Below are positions 3,304-30,750 of a stretch of 64,000 nt of DNA, in pieces. Made by a program: the position numbers and the translations under genes. The notes beneath the pieces were generated by a model. It was not told where the DNA came from, did not search any database, and saw only the letters and a list, made by a program, of their open reading frames with translations. The stretch spans positions 1 to 64,000 of the forward strand of contig JARLGI010000023.1 of the NCBI GenBank assembly GCA_031296115.1. The letters run 5' to 3'. The first letter of the stretch is position 1. Every line of letters starts with the position of its first letter. Source of the stretch: Acidobacteriota bacterium. GTDB lineage: Bacteria; Acidobacteriota; Terriglobia; Terriglobales; Acidobacteriaceae.

Positions 3304-4422
3304 ATGACCACTTCCCTTCAGGAACTTATCGCTTGTTATGACGACCAGAGCGCTCTCGATCATGCCTACACCATTCCCGCTTCCTGGTACGTGGACGAGC
3401 GCATAGCCGAAGTCGAACGGCAGTCGGTCTTCGGCGGCACATGGCAGCTGGTGGCGCGCACGGATCAACTTTGCCAGCCGGGAAAGTTCGTAACGGCGCA
3501 TTTGGCTGGCGAGCCGCTGGTCATCGTGCGTGGCGCAGACAATCAGCTGCGCGCTTTCTACAACGTATGCCGGCACCACGCGGCGGCGGTTGTTACCGAA
3601 GACGCAGGCAGCGCCAGCATCTTCCGCTGCCCCTATCACGGCTGGAGCTACGGCCTGGATGGGTCACTCAAAGGCGCACCGGAGTTCGAAGGCGTATGTG
3701 CCTTTGACCGCACGCACCATGGGCTGCTTCCGGTGCAGGTGGAAGAGTGGGAACGGTTCGTTTTCGTCAACCTCGATCCGAAAGCCCCGCCGCTGGCTGA
3801 TTACCTGGGCAGGCTGATTCAGCGTGTGACGCCGCTTGGAATCGGCTCGTTGCATTTCTTCGAGCGTCGCAGCTACAGCCTTAACTGCAACTGGAAGGTC
3901 TTTGTCGACAACTACCTTGACGGCGGCTATCACGTGCCCCACCTGCACAAGGCGCTGAACAGCGTGCTGGACTACAAGCAGTACACCATCGAGAACGAAG
4001 ACCGCTACTGCCTGCAGTCGAGTCCGATGGTCGCTTCCGAAGTGGATGCCGCGACCTCGGCCACCCGCACCGGCGACCGCGCCTGGTATTTTTGGCAGTA
4101 TCCCAACTTCATGATCAATCTCTATGCCGGGTACATGGACACCAACCTCGTGCTGCCCGACAGCGTCGACCGCTGCACTGTCATTTTCGATTTCTACTTC
4201 GCCGACGTCAGCGAGGCGGCGACCGAGCGCAACCGACAGAGCATCACAGTCGGTGAGCGAGTCAACGACGAGGACGTCGGCATCTGCGAAGCGGTGCAGC
4301 GCGGGTTGCACTCACGCGCGTATGGAGCAGGCCGGCTATCGGTGCGCCGTGAAGCGGGAGAACATCTCTTCCACCGGCTGCTGGCGGCTGATTTGAAGCG
4401 AGGAATACACCAGGCACAATAA
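3304..4422 (+). CDS. Rieske non-haem iron oxygenase, alpha subunit
   Basis: A 372-residue ring-hydroxylating-dioxygenase-type alpha subunit, cytoplasmic, needing an external reductase that is not encoded nearby. The Rieske 2Fe-2S site is intact: C89-R-H91 and C109-P-Y-H112. The mononuclear iron site appears as N203, D206, H210 and H215 in the DNYLDGGYHVPHLH block, in the usual SRPBCC domain. Length and the GLHSRAY...GRLSVRREAGEHLFHRLL ending resemble choline/carnitine/glycine-betaine monooxygenase-like members rather than classical aromatic dioxygenases; the substrate is unknown. ATG 3304 has GGAG 8 nt upstream; a TTG one codon earlier is also possible. It stands alone between a divergent GNAT gene and a secreted peptidase. 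The 242 bp that follow hold no recognisable gene. Confidence 0.9.
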   Translation: MTTSLQELIACYDDQSALDHAYTIPASWYVDERIAEVERQSVFGGTWQLVARTDQLCQPGKFVTAHLAGEPLVIVRGADNQLRAFYNVCRHHAAAVVTEDAGSASIFRCPYHGWSYGLDGSLKGAPEFEGVCAFDRTHHGLLPVQVEEWERFVFVNLDPKAPPLADYLGRLIQRVTPLGIGSLHFFERRSYSLNCNWKVFVDNYLDGGYHVPHLHKALNSVLDYKQYTIENEDRYCLQSSPMVASEVDAATSATRTGDRAWYFWQYPNFMINLYAGYMDTNLVLPDSVDRCTVIFDFYFADVSEAATERNRQSITVGERVNDEDVGICEAVQRGLHSRAYGAGRLSVRREAGEHLFHRLLAADLKRGIHQAQ

Positions 4423-7611: not shown

Positions 7612-8277
7612 TCATTTCCACAGCAATATGCCCATGCGGTAAAGATAATGCCTTGAAATATCGACCCTCCTTGCCGGGACATCCGCTAGCAGCCCGGCCA
7701 TCTCATCGCGCGTGTAAGCTTGCTGCACCGATGCGGGTGCGTCGTGCCAGGTGAGACGGCTTCGAAAGAGCGGTAATCCAAGGTAAACCAGCACAAGGTG
7801 CACGGGGCTACGAACCAGGTCGTTGATAAGCACCGCCCGATGGCAGACGCGCAGTCCCTCACGGGAAAATGTCCGCAGCATGTCGGGATCGAAGTGATGC
7901 GCCAGAAGAGAGCAGCTCACGACATCGAATGAGTCATCGCGAAAAGGCAGCCGCAGAGCGTCGCCCGCAACGGCTGGCAGTCCGTTGCTTGGCAGATGTG
8001 AACACATGCGGTCCAGCAACGTAACTTTCAGTCTCAGGCCGTCGCCAGCCAGCACCGTTTGCGCATCGCGCGGAACGTCGCCAGCGCCGGCGCCTACCTC
8101 CAACAGCGAAAGTTCCCTGGATCCAGACTCGCACGCTATCCGGCGCAAGAGCTGGATAGTGGTGCGGGCGCCGCCAAACCACTGATTGATGCGACGCAGA
8201 TCCGCCAGCGAAATGGCTACCTCAGACGCGGTGCCCAGGTCTTGATCCAGCAACTCGGCGATAACCTTGCGTTGCAT
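7612..8277 (-). CDS. Class I SAM-dependent methyltransferase
   Basis: A 221-residue Rossmann-fold methyltransferase starting at ATG 8277. A longer frame to a TTG at 8337 exists, but homologues of this type begin with an ELLD...SLADLRRINQWFGG block, which the shorter form has at its N-terminus. The SAM-binding motif I is LLEVGAGAGDVP, followed by an acidic LLD and later GDALRLPFRDDSFDVV (motif II/III region). The C-terminal region carries hydrophobic stretches (LVLVYLGLPLF), as in methyltransferases acting on lipids or quinones. It is the first gene of a two-gene operon with the flavoprotein, 12 nt apart. Substrate unknown; a hydroxylated polyketide or quinone-like lipid is a guess from the partner gene. 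Confidence 0.85.
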   Translation of the reverse strand: MQRKVIAELLDQDLGTASEVAISLADLRRINQWFGGARTTIQLLRRIACESGSRELSLLEVGAGAGDVPRDAQTVLAGDGLRLKVTLLDRMCSHLPSNGLPAVAGDALRLPFRDDSFDVVSCSLLAHHFDPDMLRTFSREGLRVCHRAVLINDLVRSPVHLVLVYLGLPLFRSRLTWHDAPASVQQAYTRDEMAGLLADVPARRVDISRHYLYRMGILLWK

Positions 8278-14391: not shown

Positions 14392-16230
14392 TTACTTGCC
14401 CTCCTGGGTCATGATGTCGTCGGTAATGGAGCGCGCGTCAATCGGCAGCCCGTTGTAATGCCGGACGCTGCGCAGACGGATGATGTCCTCGATCTTGATG
14501 TCCAGCTTCAGCAACTGCAGCATCTGTCCGTCACGGTTCTGGTCCACAATGTAGACCCGAGGGTGCGCCGCGATGAACTCATGGACTTCCGTGGTGAACG
14601 GATAAGCGCGCAGCCGCAGGTAGTCGGCCTTGACAGCGTACTCGGCTCCCAACTGCTCGAGCGTTTCCACCACGGCGTGATGCGAAGTACCGTAAGCGAT
14701 GATGCCGACCTGGTTGCCGTCATTGCGAACGATTTCCGGCTTGGGCACCAGCGCGCGCGCAGTATCGAACTTGCGCGCCAGGCGGTCCATGTTGTTGGCG
14801 TAGTCGTCAGGCCGCTCGCTGTACTGGGACTTCTCGTTGTGACCGCTGCCGCGCGCAAACCACGCCGCCCCGGGATGGTCGGTGCCGGGCAGCGTGCGAT
14901 AGCCGATGGCGTCGCCGTCCACATCTTTGTAACGCGCGAAACCGCCCAGCCGCTCGAGGTCTTCCGCGGTCAGAACCTTGCCGCGGTTCTGCGGCTTCTC
15001 GGGATATTGAAACGGTTCCGACATCCAGTTGTTCATGCCCAGGTCGAGGTCGGACATGACGAAGACCGGGGTCTGCAGCTGCTCAGCAAGATCAAAGGCA
15101 TCGGTCGCCATGCTGAAACACTCGCTGACGCTGCACGGGATCAGCATGGGATGGCACGTGTCTCCATGCGAGAGCTTCGCAACAAATTCAATGTCACCTT
15201 GCGCGGTGCGCGTCGGCAAGCCGGTGGACGGACCTACCCGCTGGATGTCCCAGATGACGCCGGGGATTTCCACGTAGTAGCCGAGACCGGCGAACTCCGA
15301 CATTAGCGAGATGCCGGGGCCGGCAGTGGCCGTCATGGAGCGCGCGCCTGCCCATCCGGCGCCCAGCACCATGCCGATAGCAGCGAGCTCGTCCTCAGCT
15401 TGGACAATCGCAAAAGTAGCCTTTCCGTCAGCTCCTACGCGGTATTCCTTCATGTAATCGATGAGAGTTTCCACCAGTGAGGAAGACGGCGTGATCGGGT
15501 ACCAAGTCACCACCGTCACACCAGCAAACATCGAGCCCATGGCAGCGGCCGCGTTGCCGTCAATGATGATCATGCCGGCGGTTTTGTCCATGCGCTCGAC
15601 GCTGAACGGGTCAGCCTTAGTGAGCGATGAGGCAGCGTAATCGTAGCCAGCCTTGGCAGCGTTCCAGTTGAGCTCGGCGGCCTTCACTTTCTTGGCGAAC
15701 TGCTTGTGTAATGCTTTCTCGACCTCGGTCATGTCGAGGTTGAGCAGCTGCGCCACCACCCCGACGTAAACCATGTTCTTGACCAGCTTGCGTAGCTTGG
15801 ATTCGGGACAGTTGGCGGCGGTAATTTTGTCGAACGGTACCGGGTAAAACGTCAGGTCGGAGCGCAATTCGTTGAGCTTCAGCGGCTCGTCATACAACGC
15901 CACGGCGCCGGGCGCGAGCGAGAGAACGTCTTCCTTCGCCGTCTCCGGGTTCATCGCCACCACGAAGTCGATTTCCTTCTTACGCGCGATGTAACCCTTC
16001 TTGCTGGCGCGGATGGTGTACCAGGTAGGCAGACCGGCAATGTTGGACGGGAACATGTTCTTGCCGGAGACGGGCACCCCCATCTGGAAGATGGTGCGCA
16101 GCAGCACGGTGTTGGCACTCTGCGATCCGGAACCGTTTACCGTCGCGACCTGGATGCTGAAGTCGTTGACGACAGGCTGGCGCTGGGCGTCGCGCTCGGC
16201 GCCATGTACTGCAATCTCAGTTGTGGCCAT
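14392..16230 (-). CDS. korA: 2-oxoacid:ferredoxin oxidoreductase, fused gamma-alpha subunit
   Basis: A 612-residue subunit with the gamma (oxidoreductase) domain fused in front of the alpha (pyrimidine-binding) domain. The N-terminal third has GSGSQSANTVLLRTIFQMG and the gamma-domain PVSGKNMFPSNIAGLPTW. The alpha part starts near residue 220, with GNAAAAMGSMFAGV and WYPITPSSSLVETL, then AEDELAAIGMVLGAGWAGAR and TATAGPGISLMSEF, which contact TPP. The C-terminal domain (VGIIAYGTSHHAVVETL) is also typical. Start ATG 16230 has AAGGGG 6 nt ahead; a TTG one codon earlier is ignored. Its stop abuts the korB start. A TATAAT promoter element lies about 46 bp upstream. Confidence 0.93.
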   Translation of the reverse strand: MATTEIAVHGAERDAQRQPVVNDFSIQVATVNGSGSQSANTVLLRTIFQMGVPVSGKNMFPSNIAGLPTWYTIRASKKGYIARKKEIDFVVAMNPETAKEDVLSLAPGAVALYDEPLKLNELRSDLTFYPVPFDKITAANCPESKLRKLVKNMVYVGVVAQLLNLDMTEVEKALHKQFAKKVKAAELNWNAAKAGYDYAASSLTKADPFSVERMDKTAGMIIIDGNAAAAMGSMFAGVTVVTWYPITPSSSLVETLIDYMKEYRVGADGKATFAIVQAEDELAAIGMVLGAGWAGARSMTATAGPGISLMSEFAGLGYYVEIPGVIWDIQRVGPSTGLPTRTAQGDIEFVAKLSHGDTCHPMLIPCSVSECFSMATDAFDLAEQLQTPVFVMSDLDLGMNNWMSEPFQYPEKPQNRGKVLTAEDLERLGGFARYKDVDGDAIGYRTLPGTDHPGAAWFARGSGHNEKSQYSERPDDYANNMDRLARKFDTARALVPKPEIVRNDGNQVGIIAYGTSHHAVVETLEQLGAEYAVKADYLRLRAYPFTTEVHEFIAAHPRVYIVDQNRDGQMLQLLKLDIKIEDIIRLRSVRHYNGLPIDARSITDDIMTQEGK

Positions 16231-16275
16231 CAATACCCCTTACTCGATGGATGACGAAGGTAGGACGAACATTTC

Positions 16276-16281
16276 ATTATA
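16276..16281 (-). promoter_or_regulatory. Putative -10 box of korAB promoter
   Basis: Minus-strand TATAAT preceded by a C-rich spacer and only a poor -35. It would start transcription near 16269, leaving a 5' leader of about 39 nt before korA with its AAGGGG ribosome binding site. Confidence 0.45.
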
Positions 16282-16396
16282 GGGCACAAGACAAGGCGAT
16301 GTTGAGCTTGGTTCTGCTGGAAGAGCCAATCTGCTTTTTTGCCAAACGGGGCGACGCCTTCAACCTTTACCAAGTCGAGCCGGCAGGTCGGAGCGA

Positions 16397-18060
16397 TCAC
16401 TTCTTGAAGTAATAAGTCCAGCTCAGGCTCACGTATGACTTCAGCGGAACGCCTACCACGCGTTCGAACGGCTCCGGTTTATTGGGCAGTGAAAGGGTCT
16501 CGGTTGTCTGGCTGGTGTAACCGTTGGCGATCAGAAAATTGGCGGCGATGGACATGCGGTTTTCCAGGAACGGCCGAAGAATGGCACCGCGGATCTCGGT
16601 GACCGGGACGCCGGTGAATCCGTCGCCCAGGGGCCTGGCCTTCACGAACTCAAACTCACCGCGGGCTTGCAGGCGAAAAGGCAGCCGATAATACGAGCCC
16701 ACCGCGTCTACGATCATGCACGGTGCTTCCGGCAACGGCTCGCCAGTCTGCCGGTCCCGCGCGTCCGCCTGCGCGTAGGAGAGGTAGAGACTGCCGCGCG
16801 AAAAATTCCTCTGCACGGAAACCGCAAGCACCTTATTGAGCGACGGCCCGACAACCTGCTGCAAGCCGGTATCGGGGTCAATCTTGGCCAACTCCAGCGA
16901 ATTCGAGACGCGCCGCAGGGTGACGTAAGACTGAGTTTGTTTGAGCACCTTCGAAAGCACGAGTTGATAAGCGCGCGACGGCGCTATCAGCGAAGGGGCG
17001 CAGGTTCCCGTTCCGATGCGAGGATCGTGGTGTGGAACGCATAGCCGTAGCTGAAGGCAAGCGTCGGCAGGTACCAGCGATCGGGCGGCAGAATGGTCAG
17101 CGTTCCCTTGGGCGGCGTGAGCGTGGCGAGCTTGTTGAACGAGTTCTGAGGATTGATCTGGTCCTGGTTGTCCATCCAGACTTCTTCCTGGCGGACTCCC
17201 AGGTTGTAGTGCAGATGGCGACCGACCGGGCCGTCGACCGAGACAAAGGGCTCGACAAACGACAAAGTCAGATTGTTGCTGGTGACGGGCTGAAATCCGC
17301 CGCTGCTGTCCACGTACTTCAGGTCGACATTGCGGGGCGCGTCGCGGCGAATGTCCACTCCGGCCAGCAGCGCCAGCCAGCGACGAACGCTCTGCACGTA
17401 TGTCGTTTCGCCCCCCAAACACGTTGCGGTTTTCGCTTTGCTGGATCAACCCGTCGCCGAAGTTCGAACGCAACGTCAGCGCATAGTTACGGTAGAAACC
17501 GGAGAAGGAAAACTGGCGCTGCTCGCTTAACTTCCAGGTATCGGTGGCCATCGCGAGGAACGTGTAGGTGTTGTCCAGTTGCCGGTTGTCGATGGTGTCG
17601 CCCTGCACCGGAACGTTTATCGGATCCAGGCCAGGAATGTAGGAGAATCCGTAATAGCCTACGCCAAACAGCGTGAGCTGATGGCGTCCGAGATTGAACT
17701 GCCGGAAGCCGTTCAATTTGTATTGCTGGCGATACTCCGGACGATCCAGGAAGCCATTGCCGAAAACTCCCCGGCAATCCAGGCGTCGGTTTGCGGATTC
17801 GCCGAGCCCCATCCGGCCATCACGTCCCCATCGCGATAATCTCCAGTGAGTTGGAGAAAGCTGGTCACCCGCTGCCGGGGAAGATAGGAAGCGGCGACAT
17901 CGATGGAGTTGTTGCCCTCGCGGACATTGAAGGCAGCGCCATCTACCCGGACGCCTTCGATCGTCGGTGCGATCAGGAAATTGTGCCACGATCCGAGGGG
18001 CAGCCGGCGCAAACGAGCCTCCGCCGCACCGGCCAGGCCGGTATGGGCTGCGCTATAGTG
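16397..18060 (-). pseudogene. TonB-dependent receptor, 5'-truncated and with three frameshifts
   Basis: The beta-barrel part of an outer-membrane TonB-dependent receptor. Read across three frames it gives one continuous barrel: [53 protein letters not shown], then YGFSYIPGLDPINVP, FGG/ETTYVQSV, LHYNLGVRQEEVW, FHT(N)DPRIGTG and a terminal WTYYFKK ending in an aromatic-rich strand. The frame changes near 17760 (one base missing), 17411-17416 (one extra G in a G-run) and 17028 (one base missing). The signal peptide, TonB box and plug are absent: recognisable sequence stops about 30 bp before nikR. The neighbouring nikR suggests a nickel-uptake receptor. Conservation apart from the indels is good, so the shifts may be sequencing errors, but the missing 5' part cannot be. 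Confidence 0.8.
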
Positions 18061-18089
18061 TTGTGAAATCAACCAGTAAAGGATGCGCA

Positions 18090-18506
18090 ATGGCGGAGCT
18101 GACCAGGACCGGGGTTTCCATCGAAGAGGATCTGCTAACCCAGTTCGACCGCGTGATCCGCAAGCGGGGCTACAAGAACCGCTCCGAGGCCATACGCGAC
18201 CTGATCCGCGAGAGCCTGGTGTCTGATGCGGTTGACCTCAACGAACCGGTGGTCGCAACACTTTCCATGGTCTACGACATCATCGTCCCAATCTGTCCAA
18301 CAAGCTGAATGAATTGCGACACCACTCGCACGGCAACGTGCTGGCCGCCACCCACGTGCATCTTGACGCCGACAACTGCCTGGAAGTCGTGATTATGCGA
18401 GGCCCGCAGCGGTGACGTGCGCCATCTCGCCGACCACATGCTGGCCATGAGCGGCGTCAAGCACGGCAAACTCGTGCTGACTACCACGGGCAAGCCACTG
18501 AAGTAG
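18090..18506 (+). pseudogene. nikR: NikR nickel-responsive regulator, two compensating frameshifts
   Basis: The N-terminus is a ribbon-helix-helix domain ([38 protein letters not shown]) of a nickel-responsive repressor. After one missing base near 18278 the frame gives [29 protein letters not shown] and CLEVVIMRG, the ACT-like nickel-binding domain with its His/His/Cys ligands. An extra C near 18403-18405 shifts back to SGDVRHLADHMLAMSGVKHGKL and a stop at 18506. The corrected protein is about 138 residues, the usual NikR length, so both indels may be sequence errors. The annotated 73-residue frame would lack the metal domain. A ribosome binding site AAAGGA sits 7 nt before the ATG. It points away from the TonB receptor remnant, its likely target. 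Confidence 0.82.
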
Positions 18507-18677
18507 ATTGGGCCGCGGAGTGTGTTGCTCCGTCCCTACGCATGTATGTAAGTCACACAGACTGCGGTTGTCCGTCACAGCCTTGGCGGGCGTAAACGCC
18601 GTTTAATACATAGCAGGGCCGAGACCCCTAAACCTATGGCGCGCGATCGCAAGCGGCACGACAAGCCGGAGACCACC

Positions 18678-20270
18678 ATGCCCAGCCCAAGGGACGGCAA
18701 TTCCTTCTCCTGGGGGGACGCGCTTTTCCTTTACATCGAGCGCGAGGGGCAGCCGCTGAACATTGCCGGGGTAAGCGTGTTCGAGGGTAAGATGAAACGC
18801 GCCGACGTCATGAAATTCATCACCGCGAAGCTACCGCGGATTCCCCGCTTCTGCCAGCGTGTGGTGTTCCCTCCCCTTGATCTCGGCCTCCCCAGATGGG
18901 AGATGGACCCCAATTTCGACATCCGCAACCACATTCGGGAGGTGAAGCTCAAGCACGGAACCGAGCAAGAGCTGAAGGCCCTGGCGGGGAAGATCGTGAG
19001 CGCCCGGCTGGACCGTCAACGGCCGCTGTGGGATTTCACTCTGGTCCGATTACAGGGGAACCGCACCGGCATGGTCGCCCGCATGCATCACTGCCTGACC
19101 GACGGCATTGCCGGCGTGGGCTCGATGAACGTCATCATGGATACCACTCCCACCCCCGCGCCGCAGCCCCTACCGCACAAACCCGCGCGGGTCGAGCCGC
19201 CGACGCCGAAGGATGCCGGCGCGGTGTTGCTGAATGGCCTGCTTAAGTCGTATTCCTCACTGGTTGAAGGAGCGCTGACATTGCACTCCGGCCTGCTCAA
19301 CATGGCGCAGGAAGCGGTGGCTCATCCCGCCGCTCCTCCGGCAGAGATGATCCGCATGGTGTCGGAACTGGCTGCGCCGGCAGAACGCCTGCCGTTTAAT
19401 ATCGTCTGCCAAGGACCGCAGAAGTTTGCCTGGGCTGAGTTGCGGCTCGACGAGATTAAGGCGGTCAAGAACGCCTGTGAAACGACCGTAAACGATGTTG
19501 TGCTTGCGGTCGTCACTTCGGCCTTCGCGCGTTATGCCTCTCTCCGCGGAGTACAACTGAAGGGACGTTCGCTGCGAATTGTGATTCCGGTCAACGTGCG
19601 CGGCGATGGCAGCACCCACGAGATGGGCAACCAGATATCCTTCGTGCCGGTCGCTGTGCCCCTCGATATTGATGATCCAGTGAAGCTGCTTGCCGAGGTG
19701 CATCAACGAGTGGAGTTCCTCAAGCGGTCGCACGCCGCAGAGCTGGTGGGGATGTTTGGCGGCGCGCTTTCGACTCTGCCCAGCGCTTTCTGGTCCCATA
19801 TTGGACCGGTGGCGAGCCAGTTGCCGCTGAGCCTCTGCAATACCATCTGCACCAATGTTCCCGGCCCGCAAGTCCCGCTGTACTTGATGGGCCACAAGAT
19901 GCTGGCGTGGTATCCCTGGGTGCCGATCGGTGGTCTCATGGGCATCAACTGCGCCATCCTCACCTATAACGGCACGGCATTCTTCGGCTTCACTGGCGAT
20001 GTGCACGCCGCGCCCGACCTGGAGCGCCTGGAGAAATTCGTCGACGTCAGCTTCGAGGAACTGAAGAAGGCCGTTGCATCCGGAGCGGCGGCACCCCAAC
20101 CGCGCAAACGCGAGCGGCCGAATGCCAGGATTCCGCTGTCTAAGACCCCTGCCAAGTCGCGGCGGCGGAAAGCGCCGGTGAAGGTAGCACCTGCAACGAC
20201 GGAAGCGGCCGCCGTTCAAGAGCAACCGACCGAAGAGCAGGAGCGGCAGACGATGGCGGTCAGCGCCTGA
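18678..20270 (+). CDS. Wax ester synthase / diacylglycerol acyltransferase (WS/DGAT)
   Basis: A bifunctional acyl-CoA:alcohol/diacylglycerol O-acyltransferase that makes wax esters or triacylglycerol storage lipid at the inner membrane. The catalytic HHxxxDG motif is present as MHHCLTDGIAG (about residue 136 of this form). The N-terminal FSWGDALFLYIE, the PLWDFTLVRL block, and NVPGPQVPLYLMG near the C-terminus are family-typical. ATG 18678 has GGAG 6 nt upstream; 18636 is an alternative adding 14 residues. The protein carries an unusual tail of about 60 residues after the last family block, rich in Lys, Arg, Pro and Ala (PQPRKRERPNARI, KTPAKSRRRKAPVK), then an acidic Gln/Glu end. That tail is not part of the catalytic fold and might bind membrane or nucleic acid. 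It stands alone. Confidence 0.9.
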   Translation: MPSPRDGNSFSWGDALFLYIEREGQPLNIAGVSVFEGKMKRADVMKFITAKLPRIPRFCQRVVFPPLDLGLPRWEMDPNFDIRNHIREVKLKHGTEQELKALAGKIVSARLDRQRPLWDFTLVRLQGNRTGMVARMHHCLTDGIAGVGSMNVIMDTTPTPAPQPLPHKPARVEPPTPKDAGAVLLNGLLKSYSSLVEGALTLHSGLLNMAQEAVAHPAAPPAEMIRMVSELAAPAERLPFNIVCQGPQKFAWAELRLDEIKAVKNACETTVNDVVLAVVTSAFARYASLRGVQLKGRSLRIVIPVNVRGDGSTHEMGNQISFVPVAVPLDIDDPVKLLAEVHQRVEFLKRSHAAELVGMFGGALSTLPSAFWSHIGPVASQLPLSLCNTICTNVPGPQVPLYLMGHKMLAWYPWVPIGGLMGINCAILTYNGTAFFGFTGDVHAAPDLERLEKFVDVSFEELKKAVASGAAAPQPRKRERPNARIPLSKTPAKSRRRKAPVKVAPATTEAAAVQEQPTEEQERQTMAVSA

Positions 20271-20473
20271 TGTACCGTCCGTAGTTTCGGACCTCTGAAC
20301 CTTCCTCTGGGTTATCGGTCACAGACAAACCGGTTGCACAGAGCAATCATGAAGTTGAAGCAGCCTCGCCGCGAGACGGCACGGGCGCGTGGCTGCAGTC
20401 AGGTCGCGCCAAGGCTTCTGCCTCAGTTCACTTCGTCCCGAGGCTGCGTAGGTGTTCTTCCAACGAGGTGCTT

Positions 20474-20809
20474 ATGCGAAAAGCAATCTTCTTCCTCTGT
20501 TTCCTGGCTGCACTTCCACTCATCGCGCAGGACAAGTCTTCGGTCACGGTCAAGGGCAGCGAGGTGAACAACGGAGTCGTGATTGTCACCGTTCACCAGG
20601 CAACCGCCACCGAGGGCAAGACCACGTTCGCACTGCAGTGCAACAAGGGAGCGTCCCTCTGCACGGTCCTCGAGCCGGGAAACTACGTGATGGTTCGCCT
20701 GCCCAAGAACTACGGCATGTACGACTGCGACAATGTGGATGTCTACGCGGCGGGAGCGGACCCGGAAACCGGCAAGAAGCTTGGGCAGTATTGCCTGACT
20801 GAGAAGTAG
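20474..20809 (+). CDS. Small secreted protein of unknown function
   Basis: A 111-residue protein from ATG 20474 with GAGG 6 nt upstream. The N-terminus MRKAIFFLCFLAALPLIAQ is a clear Sec signal peptide cut before Q or D. The mature part is short, beta-rich (VTVKGSEVNNGVVIVTVHQ) and has four cysteines (residues near 57, 63, 81 and 107), enough for two disulphides. I do not recognise a family. The 200 bp between the acyltransferase and this gene contain a weak 5-bp hairpin at 20277-20292 and nothing else I can name. It is convergent with the aceE downstream fragment. Confidence 0.72.
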   Translation: MRKAIFFLCFLAALPLIAQDKSSVTVKGSEVNNGVVIVTVHQATATEGKTTFALQCNKGASLCTVLEPGNYVMVRLPKNYGMYDCDNVDVYAAGADPETGKKLGQYCLTEK

Positions 20810-20920
20810 ATCTGCGGCTCGGCCGCGGATGCGAACGCCGACCTATGCGGCTGGCGCACGGGCGGTCTATACAATTTGACGCGCCGGAGCTGGCTGTGAT
20901 CTCGTGGCGCAAAAAAAGTC

Positions 20921-20944
20921 GGGGCACCCTTAACACGGTGCCCC
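20921..20944 (-). terminator. Rho-independent terminator, minus strand
   Basis: GGGGCACC and GGTGCCCC form an 8-bp stem around an 8-nt loop. In minus-strand sense the stem is followed by GAC and seven T residues, a good intrinsic terminator for the aceE transcript and the fragment behind it. Confidence 0.8.
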
Positions 20945-21014
20945 ATGTTTCAGCTTGCTTCACTGCCGGTCACATCTTTGCGAGTCTTACGCTACCCGAA
21001 GAGCTTTCCGCCAG

Positions 21015-21269
21015 CTAGTTGCAGTTCGAGAACTTCACCGAAGCAATCTGCGTGCTCCAGTCGAAGCGCTGGGTCACTGTGTAGTACTCCTGGGTGTACC
21101 AGAAGGTGCAGCCATGCATGCCGTCGTTAGTGTCAATGCGCATGGAGCTGTAGTCGCCCCAGCAGTTCGAAGTGTCAGGTTGCGAACCGCTGCCGCCGAC
21201 CACCTGGACTTCAGCTTCCAGGTTGCGTGCTCCGGCTTCTTTCTTTGCGGGATTCCGAAGTAATTTGAC
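21015..21269 (-). pseudogene. C-terminal fragment of a surface/exported protein behind aceE
   Basis: Directly after the aceE stop the same reading frame stays open for 84 codons to a TAG at 21015. There is no good start codon early in it (a GTG at 21203 is possible). The last 45 residues read DYSSMRIDTNDG, CTFWYTQEYY, FDWSTQIASVKFSNCN, a motif I associate with the C-terminal ends of large acidobacterial exported proteins. The first part (LLRNPAKKEAGARNLEAE) is not recognisable. It is probably the 3' end of a lost gene brought next to aceE by a deletion. A terminator follows about 70 nt later. Confidence 0.55.
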
Positions 21270-23963
21270 TTAGGTGATGGCGGGATCCACCTTCTCGCTG
21301 TCCACCCCGAGTTCCTCGAAGGCCTTCTGCGCGCGCTGCACATCAAACTTTCCGTCGCGGGCGAGCCGTGACAGCGCAGCTACTGCGATCGACTCGGCAT
21401 TGACCTCGAAGTGCCGCCGCAGGTGCTCACGATTGTCACTGCGTCCAAAGCCATCCGTACCCAGCGTGACCAGCCGTTTGCCCAGCCACGGCGAAAGCTG
21501 GTCGGGCACCGCCTTCATGTAATCGGTTGCGGCGATGATCGGGCCTTCTACCCCGTCAAGCACGGTCGCGATGTACGGCCGTTTTTCGGGTTGTGCAGGA
21601 TGCAGCCGGTTCCAGCGCTCGACGGCCAACGCGTCGCGTCGCAACTCGTTGTAGCTGGTGACACTCCAGACGTCGGCCTGAACGCCGTACTTCTCAGCCA
21701 GTATCTGCTGCGCGCGCAGCGCTTCGTTGAGGATGGGACCGCTGCCAAAGAGCTGGACGACAGACTTGCCTTCCGCCGCCGACTTATAGCGATAGATGCC
21801 GCGCAGAATGCCTTCTTCACAGCCGGCCGGCATTTCCGGCATCGCATAGTCCTCGTTGTAGATGGTGATGTAGTAGAAGCGATCTTCCATCTCTGCGTAC
21901 ATGCGGCGCATGCCATCCTGCACAATGACAGCGATCTCGTACACGTAGGCGGGATCGTAGCTGTGGCAAGTGGGGACGGTGCTGGACAGCACGAGGCTGT
22001 GGCCGTCCTGGTGCTGCAAGCCTTCGCCGGCGAGAGTCGTACGTCCGGCCGTACCGCCCATCATGAAGCCTTTGCCGCGCGAATCGGCAAACGCCCAGAC
22101 CATGTCGCCGATACGCTGGAAGCCAAACATCGAGTAGTACGTAAAGAACGGGACCATCGGCACGCCGCAGTTGGCATAGGCAGTGCCCGCCGCCGTGAAG
22201 GACGCCATCGAGCCAGCTTCGGTGATTCCCTCTTCCAGAATCTGCCCGTTCTTCTCTTCGCGGTAATACAACAGCATGTCCTGATCGTGCGGGGTGTAAA
22301 GCTGCCCCTTGCTTGCGTAAATGCCTACCTGGCGAATGATCGACTCCATGCCAAACGTGCGGCCTTCGTCAGGAATGATGGGCACGATGAGCTTACCGAC
22401 CTGAGGATTTTTCATCAGCCGACGCAACATGCTAACGAAGCCCATGGTGGTCGAGACCGCCCGGCCTTTGGAGCCGGCCAGTGATTCGGAGAACTCGGTC
22501 AGCGGAGGAGCCTGGAAGTGCATGGCAGGAACTTCGCGCTTCAGCAAGAACCCGCCAAGGGCCTCACGCCGCTGCTTTGCATAGACAATCTCGGGGCTGT
22601 CATCGGGCGGACGATACAGCCGCCCTTCCTTCGCCGCCAGCTCCGGAATCGGAATCGCAAACCGCGAGCGGAAAGCAGTCAGTGACTGATCAGCGAGTTT
22701 CTTTTCCTGGTGAGTGGCGTTGCGCGCCTCGGCCGAACCGAGACCGTAGCCTTTTACCGTGTGCGCCAGGATTACCGTGGGTGAGCCCTGGTGCTCCACT
22801 GCGCGCTTGTAGGCGTTGTAAACCTTCTGCGGATCATGGCCGCCGCGGGTGAGGCGATGCAGTTCCTCATCGCTCATGTCGGAGACCATTTCCAGCAACT
22901 CGGGATACTTGCCAAAGAAGTGGGTGCGGATGTATGCGCCGCCCTTAACCTTGTAGGTCTGGTATTCGCCGTCCACTACTTCGCCCAGGCGCTTCACCAG
23001 CAAGCCTGACTTGTCGCGCGCAAACAGCGGGTCCCAATCAGAGCCCCACAGAACCTTTATGACGTTCCAGCCGGCACCCCGGAAGGCCGCTTCCAGTTCC
23101 TTGATGATGTTTCCGTTGCCGCGCACGGGCCCGTCGAGACGCTGGAGATTGCAGTTCACGACGAAGATGAGGTTATCGAGTTGCTCGCGGGAAGCGAGCG
23201 TAAGCGAGCCCATGGACTCGGGCTCATCGGTCTCGCCGTCCCCTACAAATGCCCAGACCTTCCTGGGAGTTGCGGGAATAATCTCCCGGTTCTCCAGGTA
23301 CCGCATGAAGCGCGCCTGGTAAATCGCGTTCAGTGGTCCAAGCCCCATGGACACCGTGGGGAATCTCCAGAAATCGGGCATCAGCCAGGGATGCGGATAG
23401 GACGACAATGCAGGCTCGCCGCGCAGCTCATGACGAAAATTCTTTACCTGCTCCTCGGTGATCCGCCCCAAGAGGTAGGCCCGCGCGTAAACGCCGGGCG
23501 AAGAGTGCCCTTGAAAATAGACGAAATCGCCCGGCTGGTCGCCGTAACGGGCGTGGAAGAAATGATTGAAACCAACTTCCAGCAGCGTCGCCAGGGACGA
23601 ATACGTCGAGATATGGCCGCCGATGCCGGGGTCCTTTTTGTTCTGCCGGTGCACCATGGCCATCGCGTTCCAGCGCGTCAGACTCTTCAGCCGCCGCTCC
23701 AGTTGGCGGTCTCCGGGATATGGCACTTCCTCTTCGACGGGAATTGTATTGACGTAAGGGGTGTTGAGCTGGAGCGGAACTTCCACCCCGAACTGATGGG
23801 CCCTATTGATCAGGGCGGCGAGAAGATCGCAGCCGCGGTTCGTGCCCTCTTCCTCGACCACCTGGTCGAAGGCCTCAAGCCATTCCGCGACTTCCTCTTC
23901 CGTGTCCATCTCCGGCCTGGCCGGAAATTCGATGATCCGCTTCTTGACTTCGTAGGTTGCCAC
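21270..23963 (-). CDS. aceE: Pyruvate dehydrogenase E1 component, homodimeric type
   Basis: An 897-residue single-chain E1 that decarboxylates pyruvate with TPP and passes the acetyl group to the lipoyl E2. The TPP/Mg motif is GDGETDEPESMGSLT ending in VVNCN (about residues 230-260). GGHISTYSSLATLLEVG and YFQGHSSPGVYARAYL near residues 115-165 are the usual substrate-channel blocks. The pyrimidine domain has EGITEAGSMASFTAAGT. Length matches the E. coli enzyme (887). The start is GTG at 23963 with GAGG 6 nt ahead. No E2 or E3 gene is next to it, so the complex partners must be elsewhere. A -10 box lies about 80 bp upstream, and a structured element precedes that. Confidence 0.95.
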   Translation of the reverse strand: MATYEVKKRIIEFPARPEMDTEEEVAEWLEAFDQVVEEEGTNRGCDLLAALINRAHQFGVEVPLQLNTPYVNTIPVEEEVPYPGDRQLERRLKSLTRWNAMAMVHRQNKKDPGIGGHISTYSSLATLLEVGFNHFFHARYGDQPGDFVYFQGHSSPGVYARAYLLGRITEEQVKNFRHELRGEPALSSYPHPWLMPDFWRFPTVSMGLGPLNAIYQARFMRYLENREIIPATPRKVWAFVGDGETDEPESMGSLTLASREQLDNLIFVVNCNLQRLDGPVRGNGNIIKELEAAFRGAGWNVIKVLWGSDWDPLFARDKSGLLVKRLGEVVDGEYQTYKVKGGAYIRTHFFGKYPELLEMVSDMSDEELHRLTRGGHDPQKVYNAYKRAVEHQGSPTVILAHTVKGYGLGSAEARNATHQEKKLADQSLTAFRSRFAIPIPELAAKEGRLYRPPDDSPEIVYAKQRREALGGFLLKREVPAMHFQAPPLTEFSESLAGSKGRAVSTTMGFVSMLRRLMKNPQVGKLIVPIIPDEGRTFGMESIIRQVGIYASKGQLYTPHDQDMLLYYREEKNGQILEEGITEAGSMASFTAAGTAYANCGVPMVPFFTYYSMFGFQRIGDMVWAFADSRGKGFMMGGTAGRTTLAGEGLQHQDGHSLVLSSTVPTCHSYDPAYVYEIAVIVQDGMRRMYAEMEDRFYYITIYNEDYAMPEMPAGCEEGILRGIYRYKSAAEGKSVVQLFGSGPILNEALRAQQILAEKYGVQADVWSVTSYNELRRDALAVERWNRLHPAQPEKRPYIATVLDGVEGPIIAATDYMKAVPDQLSPWLGKRLVTLGTDGFGRSDNREHLRRHFEVNAESIAVAALSRLARDGKFDVQRAQKAFEELGVDSEKVDPAIT

Positions 23964-30343: not shown

Positions 30344-30750
30344 TTGAGCTTTCTGAATCGCTTGCAACCCTTAGGCCTACTCGTTTTGCGGCTCGCCTTG
30401 GGCGCGGTCATGATCGCCCACGGCTGGCAGAAAGTTTACGGCGGCATGCCGCAGTTCATGGAGATGTTGCGGCACATGGGAATTCCCGGCTGGATGGGCT
30501 ATCTCACGGCGGCTGCGGAATTCGGCGGCGGCATCCTGCTGGTCATCGGATTTCTGACCCGCTGGCGGCGCTCGCTATCTTCATCGACATGCTAGTGGCG
30601 ATTGTAAAAGTCCATCTGCCGCACGGCTTCTTCGCCAAGAACGGCGGCTATGAGTTCCCGCTGGTGTGTGCGGCGGTGGCGTTTTCCCTGATTTGGAGCG
30701 GAGCCGGACCGATGGCCATCGATTGGCTGTGGCGCAGCAAGGTACGATAA
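30344..30750 (+). pseudogene. DoxX-family membrane protein, single-base frameshift
   Basis: DoxX/DoxD-family inner-membrane protein of about 135 residues when one missing base is restored near 30558-30562. The first part reads MSFLNRLQPLGLLVLRLALG, HGWQKVYGG, GYLTAAAEFGGGILLVIGFLTR. After the shift, the +1 frame gives LAALAIFIDMLVAIVKVHL, GFFAKNGGYEFPLVCAAV and DWLWRSKVR. Four hydrophobic segments result, as expected for DoxX. The uncorrected frame stops at codon 83. The TTG start at 30344 follows the upstream stop directly, with GGAGG inside the preceding gene. Whether the indel is real or a read error cannot be told from this sequence. The function of most DoxX proteins is unknown. Confidence 0.8.

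Follow-up and report, generated by a model that had tools for sequence, protein, structure and literature searches.

TonB receptors with a CarboxypepD_reg domain are common in Acidobacteria, and, to our knowledge, the many TonB receptors of soil and peat Acidobacteriota are mostly without a known ligand. A literature search that covered few subscription journals, and so is weak evidence of novelty, returned no paper evidently on NikR-linked TonB receptors of Acidobacteria. One paper places the nickel TonB receptors FrpB4 and FecA3 of Helicobacter pylori among the known nickel transporters, and a title in its reference list names NikR repression (PMC11247825). The receptors considered here resemble FrpB4 and FecA3 in being TonB-type outer membrane receptors that are probably under NikR, and differ from them in being found here in Acidobacteriota and in carrying an N-terminal CarboxypepD_reg domain, which was present in all 32 aligned members of the subfamily. 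The reversed NikR operator of D. psychrophila, GTAACAC-N13/14-GTGTTAC, is placed upstream of nickel transport and nikK genes in PMC545781.

The window, that is, the whole stretch of 64,000 nucleotides that was analysed, carries on its minus strand (17982 to 16397) a 5'-truncated TonB receptor that retains the C-terminal two thirds and ends at a stop at 16397. The remnant aligns to residues 237-765 of a 765-aa TonB receptor that is intact in a genome of the same genus (G001, L016:4158-6455; named record L206, MAG Acidobacteriaceae bacterium isolate bog_169) with 64-73% identity by piece, and 371 of 503 compared residues are identical to this nearest relative, far beyond chance. The features of the locus are as follows.

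17758..17982, minus strand: remnant piece 1, G001 receptor residues ~237-311, plug end and barrel start (tblastn/blastp, 64-65% identity)
17450..17757, minus strand: remnant piece 2, residues ~314-415, in a frame that differs from piece 1 (77% identity over 102 aa)
17026..17400, minus strand: remnant piece 3, residues 432-555 (77% identity over 124 aa)
16397..17010, minus strand: remnant piece 4 including the stop codon, residues 563-765 (73% identity over 203 aa)
17984..18089, no strand: spacer between receptor homology and nikR, with no above-shuffle similarity to the receptor 5' part and no NikR-type operator
18090..18278, plus strand: first piece of nikR, ribbon-helix-helix DNA-binding part (Pfam RHH_1, E 1.1e-8; NCBIfam PRK04460, E 3e-20; TIGR02793 positions 2-60)
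18278..18406, plus strand: second piece of nikR, metal-binding part, in another frame (TIGR02793 positions 61-103, E 3.3e-8)
18407..18506, plus strand: last piece of nikR, after a further frame change (by eye from the three-frame translation)

The original prediction treated the remnant as a single receptor coding sequence. We found instead that the homology is split over four in-frame pieces, with residues 237-311, 307-445, 417-556 and 556-765 of the G001 receptor covered at 64, 72, 71 and 73% identity in alternating frames. The three frame changes lie near 17770, 17420 and 17030, and no stop occurs inside any of the four pieces. The 530-aa open frame at 16397-17989, which passes through long wrong-frame stretches of the remnant, is therefore not one coding sequence. 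Absent are residues 1-236, and with them the signal peptide, the CarboxypepD_reg domain (which spans residues 52-131) and almost the entire plug. The proposal that only the barrel remained, with plug and signal peptide gone, thus stands as to the 5' truncation and the lost signal peptide, but on our reading of the structural model the last plug strand (residues 244-250 of the G001 receptor) appears to be kept together with the barrel. Receptor homology stops at about 17983, which leaves about 107 bp, rather than the ~30 bp given before, to the nikR start at 18090. When the spacer was compared with receptor 5' and upstream DNA of two relatives, 54, 75, 70 and 189 of 200 shuffles reached the score in the four comparisons, and we rejected its origin as degraded DNA of that kind.

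The nikR gene itself (18090-18506, plus strand) is split by two frame breaks. TIGR02793 positions 2-60 match at 18105-18278 and positions 61-103 at 18278-18406 in another frame, so that no NikR profile is matched over its full length in one frame; the first piece scores 72.7 bits against a PRK04460 cut-off of 105. Matches to nikR were present in 32 of 200 family genomes, the genome of the window included, and no second nikR was found in that genome beside the window copy. Since both the remnant and nikR carry frame breaks, neither gene would give a working product as assembled, and the locus records the loss (or mis-assembly) of the pair rather than a clean fusion beside a working nikR.

The intact relatives have the order signal peptide, CarboxypepD_reg, plug and barrel, as do other TonB receptors with this domain, from which the subfamily is set apart by its nickel neighbourhood and by a nearly invariant plug stretch at residues 149-236. 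In the alignment of 32 relatives this stretch was the most conserved part (mean top-residue frequency 0.82, vs 0.67 for 237-310 and 0.65 for 311-765), and 43 of the 118 invariant columns fell in residues 1-236, 40 of those 43 in 149-236. Pfam TonB_dep_Rec_b-barrel matched 6 of the 32 members at E 0.001, and no Pfam barrel or plug model matched the G001 receptor. The AlphaFold model of this receptor (L206; mean pLDDT 76.8) was compared with the PDB, and all 50 matches listed were TonB-type transporters (best E 3.4e-24, 10-14% identity). Judged from these PDB matches rather than from a strand count, the intact relatives are predicted to adopt the plug and 22-strand-type barrel fold. BtuB entries were among the matches listed, so the subfamily probably shares the TonB transporter fold with BtuB-type cobalamin receptors, a likeness that does not tell the ligand. 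One subfamily receptor (L249:5983-8397) comes from a record titled Betaproteobacteria and falls inside the Acidobacteriota rows on the tree, which points to a mislabelled bin or a transfer.

We then asked what accompanies the receptor, using 80 loci of 93 from the named collection, with flanks fetched up to 6 kb and many of them ending at contig ends. Within the fetched flanks, nikR was present at 23 of the 80 listed loci, and nikR or a NiCoT, UreH-like or CbiM homologue at 34, with none of these at the other 46. Where 3 kb was available on both sides, 22 of 45 loci held nikR or a nickel permease homologue. In the 22 readable pairs, nikR was upstream and co-directional in 12, head to head with the receptor in 6 (L212, L214, L215, L216, L218 and L226), convergent in 3 and downstream in 1. 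A HupE/UreJ gene adjoins the receptor of L207, which is closely related to the remnant, and HypB- and HypF-type genes are found near that of L168. In the seven nearest relatives (60-74% identity) the fetched flanks, which were short in some cases, showed no nikR; L212, eighth in similarity at 57% identity, carries nikR head to head with the receptor, together with an operator. In G001, nikR is on a different contig from the receptor. Across the genus, nikR was found in 3 of 9 genomes and the receptor in 2 of the 9 surveyed, which indicates that the module is accessory.

Two receptor trees grouped the remnant with L206, L207 and L208 (support 99); for lack of rows for 24 and 21 of the 80 named loci, L212 included, which the motif filter had missed, they served for placing the remnant alone. 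On these trees linkage to nikR was unclustered (291 and 183 of 500 shuffles as low), and linkage to a nickel permease only was clustered (8 and 1 of 500). By the counts over the 80 loci, the subfamily is linked at family level to nikR or nickel permeases. Four distantly similar CarboxypepD_reg receptors (L036, L037, L049 and L109) also adjoin nikR in family genomes and have the same operator type.

A palindrome, TAACACGAAT-N5-ATTCGTGYTA, lies upstream of nikR in three relatives, and with its outer bases the best site reads GTAACAC-N13-GTGTTAC. The best sites thus share half-sites and spacing with the reversed operator of D. psychrophila as given in PMC545781, with the difference that they occur here at TonB receptors, nikR and nickel permeases. 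We built a matrix from the three sites and counted matches of at least 14 bits in a zone from -400 to +150 of the receptor start. Two of the 80 loci were dropped for want of a receptor frame, and one of those kept (L218) contains a seed site. A match was present at the receptor start in 26 of the 78 loci (27 matches in 41.9 kb of zone vs 5 in 838.5 kb elsewhere), and four of the five off-zone matches immediately preceded a nikR. In 899 kb of first-order Markov sequence there were 2 matches. An earlier control had used a plain shuffle over loci chosen partly for nikR, and the 78-locus test is the fairer one. Positional enrichment of the putative NikR operator at the receptor promoter is thus strong at family level. 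At the window locus (16.0-18.7 kb) the matrix scan found no operator left, the best site there reaching 2.4 bits. The original prediction that the receptor probably belonged to the nickel system was borne out for the subfamily, through both its nickel genes and its NikR-type operator; for the subfamily, nickel is well supported as the probable substrate, and for the remnant itself mainly through its own neighbour nikR.

We consider it somewhat probable that the locus was once a divergent nikR/receptor pair from which about 236 receptor codons and the operator were lost, and that both genes broke. In the ancestor, a plus-strand nikR and a minus-strand TonB receptor of the CarboxypepD_reg type would have flanked a NikR operator. 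With nickel available, nickel-loaded NikR would have sat on the operator and shut the receptor off; without nickel, the receptor would have been made and would have carried nickel, probably chelated, across the outer membrane. A single deletion reaching from the intergenic region into the receptor is proposed to explain the missing part, having removed the first ~236 codons and the operator, and the frame breaks in the remnant and in nikR may have followed. Given the head-to-head pairs among the relatives, the deletion originally put forward remains the simplest account of the junction. Counting against the account are the nikR-free flanks of the seven nearest relatives, the 46 of 80 loci that had none of the tested nickel genes and the lack of clustering of the nikR label on the trees, as well as three observations taken up below: the setting of the nearest intact relative among cobalamin genes, constraint on the remnant that is not relaxed (42 vs 43 amino-acid changes), and a further frame break in an unrelated gene that hints at indel errors in the assembly.

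The last two of these observations also bear on the alternative that assembly or sequencing is at fault, with local indel errors, with or without a mis-join, in an organism whose receptor and nikR are intact. The assembly is a draft of 125 contigs, 93.6% complete and 3.8% contaminated, and the segment at 16.2-21.3 kb (16233-21273) is flanked on either side by a block that keeps synteny with genus relatives, which makes a mis-join conceivable. Over 486 codons, with G305 as third sequence, the remnant branch has 42 amino-acid changes and the G001 branch 43; split by codon position, their nucleotide changes number 39:27:96 and 44:28:96, respectively. Constraint on the remnant branch is not relaxed, and decay would therefore be very recent, or the breaks are errors of the draft assembly. 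Their clustering argues for decay. Five breaks fell in 2.0 kb (three in the remnant, two in nikR), whereas the other coding DNA compared showed one in 20.4 kb; the Poisson P is 7e-8, rising to 1e-4 if the upper 95% rate is used. The comparison set, assessed against genus relatives, consisted of 15 hand-picked intact genes and one broken small gene; excluded from it were matches below 50% identity and a handful of small or overlapping matches, in none of which a break had been flagged. The broken gene (30344-30741, plus strand), the sole other break among the genes compared, encodes a 136-aa product kept in genus relatives (DoxX-like by eye) and lies in two frames; it allows that the assembly holds indel errors. 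Also weighing against a fault, the receptor 5' part was found nowhere else in the assembly. Queried with receptor residues 1-239, the genome returned 23 matches up to E 1, all at 20-39% identity (best 1.5e-11 at 31%), 12 of them in open frames of at least 999 aa; these appear paralogue-like rather than the lost receptor part, and we rejected a displaced 5' part within the assembly. Finally, the adjacency of receptor and nikR is native in relatives, so the chimeric assembly once offered as its cause is unnecessary, even though a mis-join could still have occurred. Overall we regard a fault as unlikely, though well worth keeping in mind.

We think it quite improbable that the remnant stems from a cobalamin rather than a nickel receptor and stands beside nikR by accident. 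Such an origin draws on G001, whose receptor, the closest intact relative, is surrounded by genes encoding cobalamin-synthesis and periplasmic-binding domains, a setting unlike that of the nickel-linked relatives, and whose locus holds three cobalamin riboswitches (L016:551-712 and 3650-3820 on the minus strand, 7865-8059 on the plus strand). Unlike in BtuB-type receptors, however, the G001 receptor is not directly preceded by a riboswitch. The window at 14900-19489 and the next seven loci scanned gave none, and the test for a riboswitch directly upstream was negative at 20 further receptor loci and at 8 named loci. The second nearest relative adjoins a HupE/UreJ gene, L212 has its head-to-head nikR with operator, and the subfamily, taken as a whole, is linked to nikR and to the NikR operator. 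More remote still, and in our view scarcely credible, is a working short protein in the form of a plugless barrel: the 530-aa frame is open, but it is out of register over long stretches and has no receptor signal peptide, and a barrel would require three frame changes.

Returning to the loss of a divergent nikR/receptor pair, the damage as such is ordinary, whether as gene decay or as assembly fault. More useful is a receptor subfamily of soil and peat Acidobacteriota with links to nikR, to nickel permeases and to a NikR-type operator, which provides a concrete candidate ligand. If the breaks are real, a whole nickel-uptake module was lost while a [NiFe] hydrogenase, a nickel enzyme, was kept. 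Going further, we suggest tentatively, and with some doubt, that Acidobacteriota hold a distinct NikR-controlled family of TonB receptors (~765 aa, CarboxypepD_reg, near-invariant plug stretch) that imports nickel through the outer membrane, and that this genome has just lost receptor, operator and regulator together, keeps its [NiFe] hydrogenase and must get nickel otherwise.

Upstream of the gene at 14392-16233, the neighbours are different ones in G001, G005 and G008, and the block from 21.3 kb onward is conserved in the same three genomes. From these flanking blocks, the segment between them was inserted or rearranged, or else contigs were misjoined; besides the receptor remnant and nikR it holds a wax ester synthase-like gene (by eye). 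A NicO permease had no match in the genome of the window and was present in 1 of 9 genus genomes. Urease alpha likewise had no match there, and urease as a source of nickel demand was rejected, with no match in 9 of 9 genus genomes. The [NiFe] hydrogenase large subunit gave a strong match on contig C63 (158223-159779, L121; E 1.5e-238), in a genome whose one found nikR is broken.
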